From NCBI RefSeq assembly GCF_025354435.1, contig NZ_JANXMU010000032.1:1-64000 (forward strand): a stretch of 64,000 bases of DNA, written 5' to 3'. The position numbers and the translations under genes are program-made. Source of the DNA: Rhodoferax sp. GTDB lineage: Bacteria > Pseudomonadota > Gammaproteobacteria > Burkholderiales > Burkholderiaceae_C. Every line of letters begins with the position of its first letter. Position 1 is the first letter of the stretch. Under the pieces are notes generated by a model that saw nothing but the letters and a program-made list of their open reading frames with translations, was not told the DNA's origin and ran no database searches. Positions 13,512 to 23,024 of this stretch are shown piece after piece.

Positions 13512-15752
13512 ATGGCACACCGCCGCAACTTCCAACGCGCCTCTATTAGCCCAGTTACCCCGATTGCCACTGCCGTACTGCTGGCCCTGGCCAGCGCCGT
13601 GCATGCGCAATCCAGCGCCAACACCGCAGGCACTTTGGCAGCCGTGCAGGTCAACGCCAGCGCCGATGCATCGGCTGAGGGTCTGAGCCCCGCCTACGCC
13701 GGCGGCCAGGTGGCACGCGGCGGGCGGGCCGGGATTCTGGGCACCAAAGACAATATGGACACGCCGTTTTCCATCACCAGCTACACCAACGCGCTGATCC
13801 AGGACCGCCAGGCCAAGAGCGTGGGCGATGTGCTGCAAAACGACCCCTCGGTGCGCATGGCGCGCGGCTTTGGCAACTTCCAAGAGGCGTATTTCATCCG
13901 CGGCTCCATCCTCACGTCGGACGACGTGGCCTACAACGGCATGTACAGCCTGCTACCGCGCCAGTACATCGCCACCGAGCTGTTTGAGCGCGTGGAAGTG
14001 CTGCGCGGTGCGTCGGTATTTTTGAACGGTGCCAACCCCAGCAGCGGCGGCGGCATTGGTGGTGCCATCAACCTGCTGCCCAAGCGTGCACCCAACGAGC
14101 CCCTGAACCGCATCACCCTGGGCACTGACAGCGGCGGCCAAACCTCGCTGTCCGCCGATATCGCCCGCCGGTTCGGCCCCGACCAGGCCACCGGCATCCG
14201 CCTGAACGTATCTACCCGCGGCGGTGGCTCGGCCGTCGATAGCGAAAAATCTGAACTCAACGTATTGGCCCTGGGCCTGGACTGGCGCAGCCGCGATGTG
14301 CGCCTGTCGGCCGATATCGGCTGGCAAGACAACCGCCTCAAACGCACCCAGCCCAACGTCACCCTGGTGGGCGTGAGCGCCGTGCCCAGCGCGCCGTCGG
14401 GCACCGTCAACACGGCCCAGCCTTGGTCGTATTCGAATGAAAAAGACACCTTCGGCACCGTCCGCGCCGAAGTCGACATCAACCCCAACCTCACCGCCTG
14501 GGCCGCCGCCGGGGCCCGCCGTGGCGACGAGGCCAACTCGCTGTCCAACCTGAACGTCACCAACTCCAGCACCGGCGCGGGCAACACCAGCCGCTTCGAC
14601 AACACCTCCAAAGAAGACATCACCACCGCCGAAGCCGGCCTGCGCGGCAAGCTGCGTACCGGCGACATCGGCCACGAATGGGTGGTCTCGGCCCAGCACT
14701 ACGCCAAAAAGCGCGCGAACTCGTACGCCTGGGACTTCTTCAACACCCAGGCCACCAACCTCTACAACCCGACTTACCTGGCCACGCAGCCCGCGTTCAC
14801 CAGCGGCGCGTTTACCGGCGGCACACTGGGCTCGCCCACCGTCACAGCGCGCACCCGGCTGTCCAGCATCGCGGTGGCCGACACCATGGCTTTCCTGAAC
14901 GACAAGCTGCTGCTCACGCTGGGCCTGCGCAACCAGACCCTGAAGTCCGAAGGCTTTGCCTATAGCACCGGTGTGCAGACCGACAGCTACAGCAAAAGCC
15001 ATGTCAGCCCACTGGCCGCCGTGGTCTTCAAGCTGGACAAGCAGGTATCGCTGTACGCCAACACCATCGAGGGCCTGGTCAGCAATGCCGCGCCCACCGG
15101 CGGCTACAACCGCAGCGGCGCGTATGTCACCGTGGCCAACGGCGGGCAGCAGTTGTCACCCCAGGTGTCCAAGCAAAAAGAAATCGGCGTGAAATACGAC
15201 GGCGGGCATTTTGGCGGTTCGCTGGCCCTGTTCACCGTCAACAAGCCGCACTACGTGATCAGCAACGCCAACAGCTACTCGGCCGAAGGCGAAGACTAGC
15301 ACCGGGGCATGGAATTGAACACCCAGGGCGAGCTCACCAAAGGCCTGCGCCTGCTGGGTGGCCTGACCTGGCTGGATGCCAAGCAAAAAAGCGCCTACCT
15401 GGCCGCCGCCGACGGCAAGCGCGTGATCGGCGTGCCCAAGGTCCAGGCCACCCTGGGCACCGAATGGGACGTACCCGGCGTGCCCGGCCTGGCGCTGGAC
15501 GGCCGCGTGGCCTACACCGGCTCCAGCTACGCCGATGCCACCAACACCCTGAAAGTCCCCGGCTGGACCCGCCTGGATGCCGGTGCCCGCTACCTGACCG
15601 AAGTGCAAGGCAAGCTGCTGACCCTGCGCCTGCGCGTGGACAACGTGGCCAACAAAAAGTACTGGGCTTCGTCCGGCGGCTACCCCGACAACGGCTACCT
15701 GATGGTGGGTGCGCCGCGCAGTTTCAATCTGAGTGCCAGTATTGATTTTTAA
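13512..15752 (+). pseudogene. TonB-dependent siderophore receptor with one in-frame amber stop
   Basis: The outer-membrane ferric-siderophore receptor is encoded in one continuous frame of about 746 codons but is cut by TAG at 15297-15299. It has a signal peptide ending HAQSS, a plug domain (TPFSITSYTNALIQDRQ, GDVLQNDPSVRMARGFGNFQ, FIRGSIL, RVEVLRGASVFLNGANPS) and barrel strands up to VNKPHYVISNANSYSAEGED. After the stop the same frame continues HRGMELNTQGELTKGLRLLG and ends NLSASIDF with the usual terminal Phe. Homologues have a residue such as Q before HRG-E-L-N, so CAG to TAG is the likely change. The upstream part alone would lack the last barrel strands. It could also be a sequencing error. 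A ribosome-binding site (GAAGGG) precedes the ATG. Confidence 0.85.
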
Positions 15753-20520: not shown

Positions 20521-21327
20521 ATGGCCGACATCTTCCTGAGCTACAACGAAAAAGACCGCCCACGGGTGCGCCAACTGGCGCAGGCCCTGGAGCGCGCGGG
20601 CTGGTCCGTCTGGTGGGACCGCCGCGTGCCTGCGGGCCTGACCTGGCGCAGCCTCTTGGAGCAGGAGCTGCAAAACATGCGCTGCATGCTGGTGCTGTGG
20701 TCGAATAACTCCGTCAAAAGCGAATGGGTCTGCGAAGAAGCCACCGAAGGGCGGCTGCTGGGGCGGCTCATCCCCGTGTTCCTGGAGCGCGTGCGCCCGC
20801 CCGCCGGGTTCCGTGAAGTGCAGGCCGCCGACCTGGTCGACTGGGACGGCACTAACGACACCATCGGCCTGCAGCAACTGCTGGACGACATTGCCCACAA
20901 ACTGGGCGCACCGCCGGTAATACCGCAAGACCCAGCCGTCCCTGTGGAGCCACCACAACCACCCCATCCATCATCCGCCCCTTGGAAACCTTGGGTGGTG
21001 ACCACGGCGCTGCTGCTGGTGGCCGTGGGCATCTACCTGGGCGTGGGCGCCGTCGCACGCCGCGAGGCAGTGGTGCCCCTGGCGACCCCACCGGCTACCA
21101 GCACCCCCAGTGCCGCGGTGATTGCCGAACCGCCTAGCCTCACGGCCTCTACAGCCCCAACGCCCGTGGTCATCGCCGCCACGCCCACCGTCAAGCTACC
21201 GCCTGTAACGCCCGCCACTCCAGCCAAACGTCCGCTGCCCGCCCGCTGTAACGCCATCCACGAGCGCCAGGGGCTGGGCGAGGCCCCGTCGGCGGCAGAC
21301 CAGACCTTTCTGAACAAGGAGTGCTAG
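20521..21327 (+). CDS. TIR-domain protein with transmembrane anchor
   Basis: 268 residues from the ATG at 20521; the upstream frame to 20449 lacks conserved sequence. Residues 1 to about 125 form a TIR domain: MADIFLSYNEKDRPRVRQLA, BB-loop-like WWDRRVPAGLTW, VLWSNNSVKSEWVCEEATEG with the Glu region where TIR NAD-hydrolases have their catalytic Glu, then RLIPVFLERVRPP. A proline-rich linker leads to one membrane helix (about 160-182), a second Pro/Ala/Thr-rich stretch and a C-terminal cap LPARCNAIHERQGLGEAPSA ending LNKEC with two cysteines. The TIR domain should face the cytoplasm. It starts a three-gene set with an OmpA-like lipoprotein and a small membrane protein. NADase activity or defence is inference. 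Confidence 0.85.
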   Translation: MADIFLSYNEKDRPRVRQLAQALERAGWSVWWDRRVPAGLTWRSLLEQELQNMRCMLVLWSNNSVKSEWVCEEATEGRLLGRLIPVFLERVRPPAGFREVQAADLVDWDGTNDTIGLQQLLDDIAHKLGAPPVIPQDPAVPVEPPQPPHPSSAPWKPWVVTTALLLVAVGIYLGVGAVARREAVVPLATPPATSTPSAAVIAEPPSLTASTAPTPVVIAATPTVKLPPVTPATPAKRPLPARCNAIHERQGLGEAPSAADQTFLNKEC

Positions 21328-21329
21328 CC

Positions 21330-22532
21330 ATGCAACGCCTCTCCCTTTTCGCCCTGGCCCTATTGGCCGCTTGCACGAACATGCCGCCACCCGGCCCCGC
21401 GACGGCTCCAGTGCCCGTGGCTGCCGCCCCTGCACCACCGCCCCCCACCCTCCCCTATGACGAGGCCGTCACCAGCGCCGCCACCGCACTGCTGAACAAC
21501 GCCAAGCTGCCCGGCCCGCCGCGCTACACCGTGGTGATCGACCCGCTGGTGGACGGCATGACCGGGGCGCAGTCCAACGCCACCCGTTCCATGGGCCAGC
21601 GGCTGGAGGCCATGATCCGCGCGCAGTACCCGCAGTTCGACCTGCAGCCGTTTACCGCCGCCAATGTGGCGCGCAGCCCGCTGGTGCTGATAGGCACCTT
21701 CACCGGCGTGAACGCGGCGCGGCAAAGTGCGGGCGTGCGCGAGGCCTACCGCATCTGCTTTGCGCTGGCCGACCTGAAGACCGGCAAACTGGTCAGCAAG
21801 GGCCTGGCGTTTTCCAAACCCGAGGGCGTGGACAGCACCCCGCTGGCCAGCTTTCGCGACGCGCCCGCCTGGACCGAAGACCCTGCCACGCTGGGCTACA
21901 TCCGCACCTGCCTGGGCACGCGGGCGGGCGACCCCATCAACGCCCTGTACACCGAGCGCATCGTCGCCGCCGCCCAGGTAGCCGAAGCCATGGAGGCCTA
22001 CGACGCGGGCCGCTACCAGGAGGCGCTGGACTTGTACACCAGCGCCCAGCACACGGCGGCAGGCGATCAGTTCCGGGTCTACAACGGCATCTACCTGGCC
22101 CAGTGGAAGCTGGGGCGACGCGACCGGGCCGAGGCCGCCTTCGGCAAGATCGTGGACTTTGGCCTGGCGCAAAAACGCCTGGCGGTGAAGTTCTTGTTCC
22201 GCCCAGGGTCCACCGCTTTCGGTACAGACAACCGCCAGACCGAGGCCTACCCGCTGTGGCTCAAGTCCATCGCCACCCAAACTGCCACCAGCCCCGCCTG
22301 CCTGGAAATCACCGGCCACACCAGCGCCACCGGTCCCGAACCGCTGAACGAGCGCCTGTCGCAACTGCGCGCCGAATACGTCAAAACCCGGTTGGAGGCC
22401 ACCAACCCCGCTCTCGCCAAGCGCAGCATCGCCAACGGCATGGGCTCGCGCCAGACCCTGGTGGGCAACGGGCGGGATGATGCATCCGACGCGCTGGACC
22501 GCCGGGTGGAGTTCAAAGTGATTGGGTGCTAG
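21330..22532 (+). CDS. OmpA-domain lipoprotein of the TIR operon
   Basis: 400 residues from the ATG at 21330, two bases after the TIR stop. The signal MQRLSLFALALLAAC is a lipobox, so it is a lipoprotein; a Pro/Ala-rich linker follows. The N-terminal domain (about 45-190) has VVIDPLVDGMTGAQSNATRS and SPLVLIGTFTGVNAA, reminiscent of LpoB/CsgG-like folds. A short TPR-like helical pair (about 210-265, AYDAGRYQEALDLYTSAQ) comes next. An OmpA-like peptidoglycan-binding domain closes it (KFLFRPGSTAF, EITGHTSATGPEPLNERLS, RAEYVKTRLE). It probably bridges outer membrane and cell wall and connects to the TIR membrane protein. Confidence 0.82.
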   Translation: MQRLSLFALALLAACTNMPPPGPATAPVPVAAAPAPPPPTLPYDEAVTSAATALLNNAKLPGPPRYTVVIDPLVDGMTGAQSNATRSMGQRLEAMIRAQYPQFDLQPFTAANVARSPLVLIGTFTGVNAARQSAGVREAYRICFALADLKTGKLVSKGLAFSKPEGVDSTPLASFRDAPAWTEDPATLGYIRTCLGTRAGDPINALYTERIVAAAQVAEAMEAYDAGRYQEALDLYTSAQHTAAGDQFRVYNGIYLAQWKLGRRDRAEAAFGKIVDFGLAQKRLAVKFLFRPGSTAFGTDNRQTEAYPLWLKSIATQTATSPACLEITGHTSATGPEPLNERLSQLRAEYVKTRLEATNPALAKRSIANGMGSRQTLVGNGRDDASDALDRRVEFKVIGC

Positions 22533-23024
22533 ATGGCTACCGCCGCGCTGGATCTGCTGCGCCAGGCCAAAGCCGCTTACGGGCCCGAGTACGAAAAGCA
22601 CCTGTTCGAGCAGTACAAACTGTACGTCGACATGGCCGACCGCATCAGCGCCCGGCGCATGCTGGCCAATTCGTTTTTTGTGGGCGTGCACACCGCGCTG
22701 ATCACCGCCTTCACCGTGATGCTGAAGGAAAAGGTGCTGCAGCCCACACTCACCGGGCTGGCCCCGTTTCTGGCCGTGGTGCTGCTGTGCTTCATCTGGT
22801 GGCGGGTGGTGCACTCCTACCGCCAGCTCAATTCGGCCAAGTTCAAGGTGGTCCACGCCCTGGAGCAAATGCTGCCCGTCGCCCCCTATGACGCCGAATG
22901 GACCGCCCTGGGCCGCGGCAGCAATGCCCGCCTCTACCTGCCGCTGACCCACGTGGAGAACTGGGTGCCGGTGTGCTTTGGCGTGCTGTATGTGCTGCTG
23001 GCGGTGACGCTGTATACCGGCTGA
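22533..23024 (+). CDS. Small membrane protein of the TIR operon (RipA-like)
   Basis: 163 residues, ATG immediately after the previous stop. The start YGPEYEKHLFEQYKLYVDMA then DRISARRMLANSFFVGVHTA leads into two close helices (LITAFTVMLK; LAPFLAVVLLCFIWWRVVHS), a cytoplasmic segment and a last hydrophobic stretch (VPVCFGVLYVLLAVTLY). The Y-K-L-Y-x-x-x-A-D-R-I-S-x-R-R pattern resembles the RipA family of octameric membrane proteins, an assignment from memory that needs a profile search. It ends three bases from the convergent DUF3299 gene. Confidence 0.7.
   Translation: MATAALDLLRQAKAAYGPEYEKHLFEQYKLYVDMADRISARRMLANSFFVGVHTALITAFTVMLKEKVLQPTLTGLAPFLAVVLLCFIWWRVVHSYRQLNSAKFKVVHALEQMLPVAPYDAEWTALGRGSNARLYLPLTHVENWVPVCFGVLYVLLAVTLYTG

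Follow-up and report, generated by a model that had tools for sequence, protein, structure and literature searches.

A TIR gene of Rhodoferax as part of a putative two-gene unit combining a short C-terminal tail and an OmpA-type lipoprotein with varied enzyme domains

Most of what is known about the TIR, caspase, and kinase effectors of bacteria concerns forms with cytosolic sensors. In the YfiBNR system, the OmpA-type outer-membrane lipoprotein YfiB controls the inner-membrane cyclase YfiN, with the soluble periplasmic YfiR between them, and PASTA-domain Ser/Thr kinases are inner-membrane kinases with an external wall-sensing part. Zorya (PMC11890865) is a membrane complex that is anchored to peptidoglycan and linked to effectors inside the cell, and its ZorAB part is a motor-like 5:2 complex. 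Sections of Kaur et al. 2020 (PMC7159879) describe a two-gene EACC1–caspase system, in which the 5′ gene encodes the transmembrane protein EACC1 and the 3′ gene usually a caspase, and the iSTAND ternary systems, which have a MoxR–vWA–iSTAND core and OmpA and PASTA among their variable parts; a survey of prokaryotic caspases, in its part on this subject, notes operon partners and possible export (PMC3501461). Here we analyse a stretch of 64,000 nucleotides from Rhodoferax sp. (contig NZ_JANXMU010000032.1, positions 1 to 64,000; hereinafter, the window), in which three genes on the + strand occupy positions 20521-23024 with intergenic gaps of 2 and 0 bases. They encode a TIR protein (P0001), an OmpA-type lipoprotein (P0002, hereinafter LP), and a small membrane protein (P0003). 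An earlier note, made from the sequence alone, had given the order, strand, coordinates, and 0-2 base spacing of these genes correctly and had taken the trio for a possible envelope-triggered TIR system of phage defence. Our analysis indicates that a constant pair, the tail of the first protein and LP, occurs with interchangeable enzymes, and this is both better supported and more interesting than a defence trio.

Tail, lipoprotein, and exchange of enzymes

The C-terminus of P0001 reads CNAIHERQGLGEAPSAADQTFLNKEC. An ending of this kind, approximately 28 residues in length and with the consensus RC.DLL.R.QLGE.LS........KEC, is common to very different LP-adjacent proteins; this cysteine-bracketed tail is the most telling feature of the locus and was unmentioned in the earlier note. 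LP was found in 64 of 399 genomes of the family (E ≤ 1e-15) and in 4 of 398 genomes of the phylum. A profile of the tail gave 54 matches in 47 of the family genomes, all 47 within the 64 that carry LP. As many as 52 of the 54 matches end at most 200 nt upstream of the LP gene on the same strand, and the remaining two lie 2.3-2.4 kb upstream of it. In the phylum genomes, the profile gave four matches, two of them true and two internal and partial; the latter belong to genomes without LP (G731 and G764). The true tail of a caspase in G790 was overlooked, so the tail search has false negatives. The final cysteine stands at most eight residues from the C-terminus in 107/107 adjacent tails. The tail is covered by no Pfam family, either in P0001 (E ≤ 1) or in the other scanned tail proteins (E ≤ 0.01 or 0.001), and tail genes are therefore likely to be annotated from their enzyme domain alone.

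The proteins that bear the tail are diverse. At 159 distinct LP loci, where merging was restricted to loci with identical C-terminal LP residues (up to the last 300) and near-copies such as L048 and L088 are possibly counted twice, the adjacent upstream tail protein carries a Ser/Thr kinase domain in 57 cases, TIR in 24 (one of which, L059, is divided over several frames), a caspase in eight, an AAA ATPase in six, and no recognised domain in 12. Judged by eye, four of these 12 (L217, L226, L229, and L237) are short, with a signal segment followed by a Pro-rich stretch and then the tail, and are seemingly secreted, and three (L255, L256, and L257) have several hydrophobic segments; the other five are truncated at contig ends. 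Downstream of LP there are two more tail caspases, and a further six tail proteins are encoded upstream at a distance of 2-2.5 kb. Domain names were taken from Pfam scans of representatives and from profile matches. The genes of the relatives were called with a home-made codon-bias caller, and for this reason, the partners were read from stop-to-stop frames. At the level of sequence, the tail and LP are genetically coupled, being inherited as neighbours, and the enzyme is exchanged between TIR, Ser/Thr kinase, caspase, and AAA ATPase. The coupling of a membrane-tethered TIR domain to a lipoprotein of the peptidoglycan-binding type, put forward in the earlier note, is thus found beyond this genome alone, at 24 distinct loci; its focus on TIR captured one of several interchangeable domains in a wider finding. 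In L214, L218, L223, and L225, two kinase-tail/LP pairs stand in tandem, 3.1 kb apart.

On the LP tree (152 rows), the eight known enzyme labels need 13 changes, the least possible number being 7; when the unknowns are treated as a ninth group, 27 label changes are needed vs 85 in shuffles. The TIR label changes five times, at least four of these on starred branches. LP lineages therefore mostly keep their enzyme, with several switches. The distance between tails tracks the distance between LPs when TIR loci are compared with kinase loci (1311 pairs, rho 0.52); within-class shuffles gave 0 ± 0.09, and none of 500 reached rho 0.52. This fits a tail and LP that have been evolving together.

The TIR, kinase, and AAA forms have a single hydrophobic helix after the enzyme domain. 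The mean charge on its N side is more positive than on the other side in TIR proteins (+2.35 v +0.48; 23 proteins), kinases (+2.71 v +0.04; 56), and AAA proteins (+2.17 v +0.5; six), which argues for an enzyme inside and a tail outside. In the eight caspase forms, the strongest hydrophobic stretch is N-terminal, and both the caspase and the tail would therefore be periplasmic. The charge and hydrophobicity patterns point to a periplasmic tail. In the AlphaFold2 model of P0001, two tail helices (aa 241-251 and 258-267) have a pLDDT of 94-96, and the tail is predicted, with high confidence, to be a helix hairpin between two conserved cysteines.

LP has the lipobox LAAC and an OmpA domain at aa 290-384 (PF00691, 1.3e-9, 38.7 bits vs a cut-off of 27.2), whose structural matches include TagL, Pal, and YfiB (Z 13-15; 12-15 with the others); by prediction, the fold is of the peptidoglycan-binding type. 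The LP model (pLDDT 92.4, pTM 0.88) comprises an alpha/beta N-terminal part, four TPR-like helices, and the OmpA fold. The TPR_19 match is below its cut-off (17.7 bits), and the fold search, performed with the whole model, barely covered the residues before 180. The 'LpoB-like' part assigned to the lipoprotein in the earlier note finds no support in the sequence, as P0002 gave no match to LpoB (PF13036) at E ≤ 1; the sole match in its own genome is on another contig (17.8 bits vs a cut-off of 22.3). Values of dN/dS for LP are 0.094, 0.106, and 0.162 in comparisons of the window with L040, L041, and L042, respectively. In named-species genomes, 304 LP relatives were reported, and the best 80 of them include Rhodoferax, Dechloromonas, Zoogloea, Accumulibacter, Rubrivivax, Competibacteraceae, Skermanella, Bosea, and Bradyrhizobium. 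The LP of G436 has no tail protein in the examined stretch, and a kinase-like frame downstream of it is cut by the end of the stretch.

The TIR domain, the third gene, and the surroundings

Residues 4-121 of P0001 match TIR_2 (PF13676) with 87.7 bits (1.1e-24, cut-off 28), and Foldseek relates the fold to the TIR domains of SPARTA, AbTir, SARM1, and MyD88, the last of which is a non-enzyme. Glu73 is aligned with the Glu of WTNYE in AbTir, which we take to be the catalytic residue there, and is conserved in 23/23 TIR-tail proteins; the catalytic Glu suggested in the earlier note for mutation is thus retained throughout this set. The dN/dS values of the TIR domain are 0.027, 0.018, and 0.216 in comparison with L040, L041, and L042. 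The kept Glu73 and the low dN/dS support a domain under maintenance, a putative NADase. ThsB of Thoeris was rejected as an identity for P0001, with ThsB_TIR scoring 19.1 bits, under its cut-off of 21.2. AlphaFold2 gave a TIR domain with a pLDDT of 86-96 by blocks, the helix at 159-182, and a low-confidence linker, for which dN/dS is 0.27-0.45 in the same three comparisons. The TIR protein is present in seven of the eight genomes of the genus and missing from G005. The G004 genome has a second TIR_2 protein (L047:8323-9954, - strand) of 543 aa, composed of TIR, a hydrophobic helix, and TPR; it is tail-less, and no LP match was found in the examined stretch of L047.

P0003 is 8xMP (PF24838) over aa 25-159 (9.9e-43, 145.7 bits vs a cut-off of 30), so that both the OmpA domain and the RipA-like membrane protein named in the earlier note agree with Pfam matches above cut-off. 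No solved structure matched P0003 at E ≤ 1. A SLATT identity was rejected, given 13.2 bits for SLATT_1 (NF033634) vs a cut-off of 41. The trio occurs in five of the eight genus genomes (G000, G002, G003, G006, and G007), and dN/dS of 8xMP is 0.055 against L040 and 0.171 against L042; together with the dN/dS values of TIR and LP, this makes the association of the three genes one beyond chance. However, 8xMP stands by only 5 of the 159 LP loci, all of them in the window's genus, and by none of the other 154. At other TIR loci, no recurrent downstream third gene was seen by length, strand, and spacing (by eye, unclustered). The trio put forward in the earlier note does co-occur within the genus and is ruled out as the unit: the wider unit is the pair of genes 1 and 2, and 8xMP is a genus-level addition.

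The coordinates of the features are given in Table 1. The scanned neighbours of the trio in the window comprise an esterase, an enzyme of Cys/Met metabolism, an aldehyde dehydrogenase, proteins of the DUF3299 and winged-helix types, and an FtsX/MacB-type permease. In G002, G003, and G007, the trio is at the same syntenic place, downstream of the aldehyde dehydrogenase; the locus stretches examined for G006, G001, and G004 did not show this arrangement. In G007, a frame judged by eye to be PIN/VapC toxin-like (L040:11207-11632, - strand) is directly downstream of the trio. Rfam and tRNA scans gave no match anywhere in the window. Elsewhere in the window, two frames in the same register (13512-15299 and 15309-15752; 13512-15752 overall, + strand) appear by eye to be one TonB-type receptor, parted by an in-frame TAG at 15297-15299, which is either a broken gene or a sequence error.

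Table 1. Positions of genes, domains, and signals of the three-gene locus in the window.
Feature	Coordinates	Strand	Basis
Gene 1: TIR, membrane helix, Pro-rich linker, and tail; 268 aa, P0001	20521..21327	+	
TIR_2 domain with catalytic-type Glu73 in SEWVCEE	20530..20883	+	Pfam, fold match, Glu73 conservation
Predicted membrane helix, aa 159-182	20995..21066	+	AlphaFold2 model; charge bias across the set
Pro/Ala/Thr-rich linker, aa 183-240, low confidence (disordered)	21067..21240	+	AlphaFold2; loosest region by dN
Tail at the C-terminus, aa 241-268; Cys243 and Cys268 bracket two predicted helices	21241..21324	+	
AAGGAG, overlapping the tail's Lys-Glu codons; probable ribosome-binding site for gene 2	21316..21321	+	Read from sequence
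Gene 2: lipoprotein LP, 400 aa, P0002	21330..22532	+	
LP signal peptide, lipobox LAAC (Cys15)	21330..21374	+	Read from sequence; Cys15 invariant in alignment
LP N-terminal region, alpha/beta, without a Pfam family; aa 61-200	21510..21929	+	Predicted structure
LP four helices, aa 205-280, weak TPR resemblance	21942..22169	+	Model; TPR_19 below cut-off
LP OmpA-type peptidoglycan-binding domain, aa 290-384	22197..22481	+	Pfam and structural matches
Gene 3: membrane protein of the 8xMP/RipA type; 163 aa, P0003	22533..23024	+	Pfam

A relay across the envelope and its alternatives

Genes 1 and 2 probably form one version of a modular relay across the envelope, whose output is an exchangeable enzyme. 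We infer that the tail, closed by a disulfide, docks in the periplasm on peptidoglycan-bound LP and that the enzyme is kept in a set state while the peptidoglycan and the envelope spacing are intact. Envelope damage would alter or break the contact between the tail and LP, and the membrane enzyme would be reorganised and switched on; such an arrangement could report envelope damage to the cell interior. In the TIR form, the TIR domains would cluster and either cleave NAD or produce a signal of the cyclic ADP-ribose type, with arrest or death as a putative result. In the window's genus, 8xMP is possibly a membrane effector or a partner of the output, which is the weakest step. A bolder proposal, which we offer tentatively, is a Proteobacterial family of envelope sentinels, in which LP would be a socket and the disulfide-stapled tail a plug for varied lethal or signalling enzymes, and a breach by a phage, a rival, or an antimicrobial may cluster or release the enzyme and so lead to suicide or arrest.

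If the relay exists, a fixed periplasmic plug and an outer-membrane lipoprotein would be a general rule for how the state of the envelope reaches such enzymes. From the 28-residue tail, one could predict the input to many TIR, metacaspase, and kinase genes that stand alone, and the receptor would be modular and could be re-plugged in the laboratory.

Several observations weigh against the relay. The tail has a dN/dS of 0.20-0.51 over its 28 codons and is looser than the TIR domain, and the whole-chain model of P0001 reaches a pTM of only 0.52. The charge bias of P0001 itself is neutral (+1 / +1), and that of L044 is reversed. The LP tree is of the 'quick' kind, some of its branches (L103, L115, L263, and others) being long, and co-descent of neighbours alone could yield the correlation between tail and LP distances. 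The final Lys-Glu codons of the tail may be retained as a ribosome-binding site: they are AAGGAG in 35 of the 41 tails that end with KE (35 of the 107 adjacent tails overall), and in the window, AAGGAG stops 8 bases ahead of the LP start. 

Finally, 44 of the 159 LP loci have no visible tail. At 12 of them, a WD40-caspase is encoded directly downstream, and at six (L110, L113, L114, L118, L119, and L130), a caspase on the opposite strand is downstream. A kinase is approximately 2.5 kb away at four, one of them on the opposite strand. One tail-less locus has TIR (L115), and one has a kinase with an end that by eye is degenerate and Cys-bracketed (L263). Nothing was recognised at 20, including eight at contig ends, five with partial LP-like proteins, and seven unexplained. 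LP can apparently act without a tail, given these tail-less loci, the 12 with a WD40-caspase and the seven unexplained ones included. The WD40-caspase loci are L049, L052, L109, L121, L122, L125, L129, L131, L199, L204, L216, and L264, and the WD40-caspase of L052 starts with a signal-like segment. The opposite-strand caspase loci are from Bradyrhizobium in the named cases read, and the L113 caspase, the sole one scanned, has an FGE-sulfatase domain.

One alternative, which we regard as rather unlikely, is envelope homeostasis in place of cell death. The module would report the state of the peptidoglycan or outer membrane, the enzyme, mostly a kinase, would tune growth or wall synthesis, and TIR would serve signalling or as a scaffold. 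That kinases are the commonest partner (57 of 159 loci) agrees with such a role, as do the OmpA-type LP, the housekeeping-type neighbours, and the old vertical descent in part of the genus; however, TIR and caspase partners are ill-suited to mere tuning, and the caspase forms are apparently all-periplasmic.

An envelope-triggered TIR system of abortive infection, in which 8xMP would be a nucleotide-gated pore comparable to SLATT in its arrangements with TIR, is unlikely. The catalytic-type Glu of TIR is conserved and LP has a patchy spread (64/399 family and 4/398 phylum genomes), both of which agree with phage defence, and TIR, caspase, and kinase effectors are typical of conflict systems in the sections of Kaur et al. 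2020 (PMC7159879) that treat them. However, defence genes do not recur around the LP loci examined. Of the 235 genes that qualified as neighbours of LP loci in the family, a random draw of 120 was taken and 87 were scanned, 33 having been removed by hand (the neighbours of the partial LP-like L265-L269 and most frames cut at a locus end). Among the best 25 of 86 Pfam families, none was matched by more than three of the 87, and those three are kinases; PADLOC gave nearly only PD-T4-6 kinase models, with three members each (best 25 of 38 families), and on the ten window neighbours, only an FtsX-type permease and an ABC ATPase. A defence island or secretion cluster was rejected on these grounds: no defence-island setting of the kind the earlier note had suggested looking for was seen at the LP loci examined, and with nearly only permease, ABC ATPase, and kinase-type models among the PADLOC families listed, the phage-defence role it proposed is unsupported. 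The fixed syntenic place of the trio in three genomes, the lack of 8xMP at other LP loci, and the sub-cut-off SLATT_1 score also speak against this explanation. None of 50,697 phage records matched P0001, and of 72,556 plasmid records, a single one, without annotated genes, matched P0002.

It is quite improbable that the tail is a by-product of the LP ribosome-binding site or start region, or an export or stability signal, and not a docking element: AAGGAG usage and a C-terminal position without exception in the adjacent set agree with this, but two tail caspases are downstream of LP and six tail proteins are 2-2.5 kb away, and the cysteines, the last of them constantly near the end, and the first tail helix are unexplained by a ribosome-binding site.

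Comparison with described systems

No description of the pair of tail and LP, or of the tail, was found in the open-licence PMC literature (subscription papers and preprints lie outside this scope), and the two-gene unit is apparently undescribed; within that literature, the earlier note was right to know of no system with such a composition. A search of the same literature for 8xMP returned unrelated papers only. Gene 3 is a full-length member of the 8xMP/RipA proteins (PF24838), and its coupling to TIR and LP is seen only in the window's genus.

Compared by description with the EACC1–caspase system, as the corresponding section of PMC7159879 presents it, the unit likewise has two genes, a constant membrane-linked component, and variable effectors including caspases. 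The constant parts here differ: they are an outer-membrane-type lipoprotein, usually in the 3′ gene, and a short tail, predicted to be periplasmic, that the variable protein carries. With the iSTAND systems, as outlined in the same source, it shares conflict-type effectors alongside peptidoglycan-binding domains; unlike in those systems, a MoxR–vWA–iSTAND core is not adjacent in the window.

The OmpA/MotB-type domain is shared with Zorya (PMC11890865), and so would be the anchoring to peptidoglycan of a membrane complex that is tied to effectors inside the cell. A Zorya identity was rejected: the ZorB model covers only aa 326-397 of P0002, ZorA was matched by none of the ten window neighbours, and, unlike in Zorya, LP is a lipoprotein without a membrane motor, the ZorB match being limited to the OmpA region.

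As in YfiBNR, an OmpA-type lipoprotein and an inner-membrane enzyme are combined across the periplasm, and YfiB structures match the OmpA fold of LP. Unlike in YfiBNR, the tail would make the contact directly, the scanned window neighbours include neither YfiR nor a GGDEF protein, and the partner is TIR. In comparison with the PASTA-domain kinases, the putative wall binding belongs here to another protein, the lipoprotein, and enzymes of several kinds can be exchanged.

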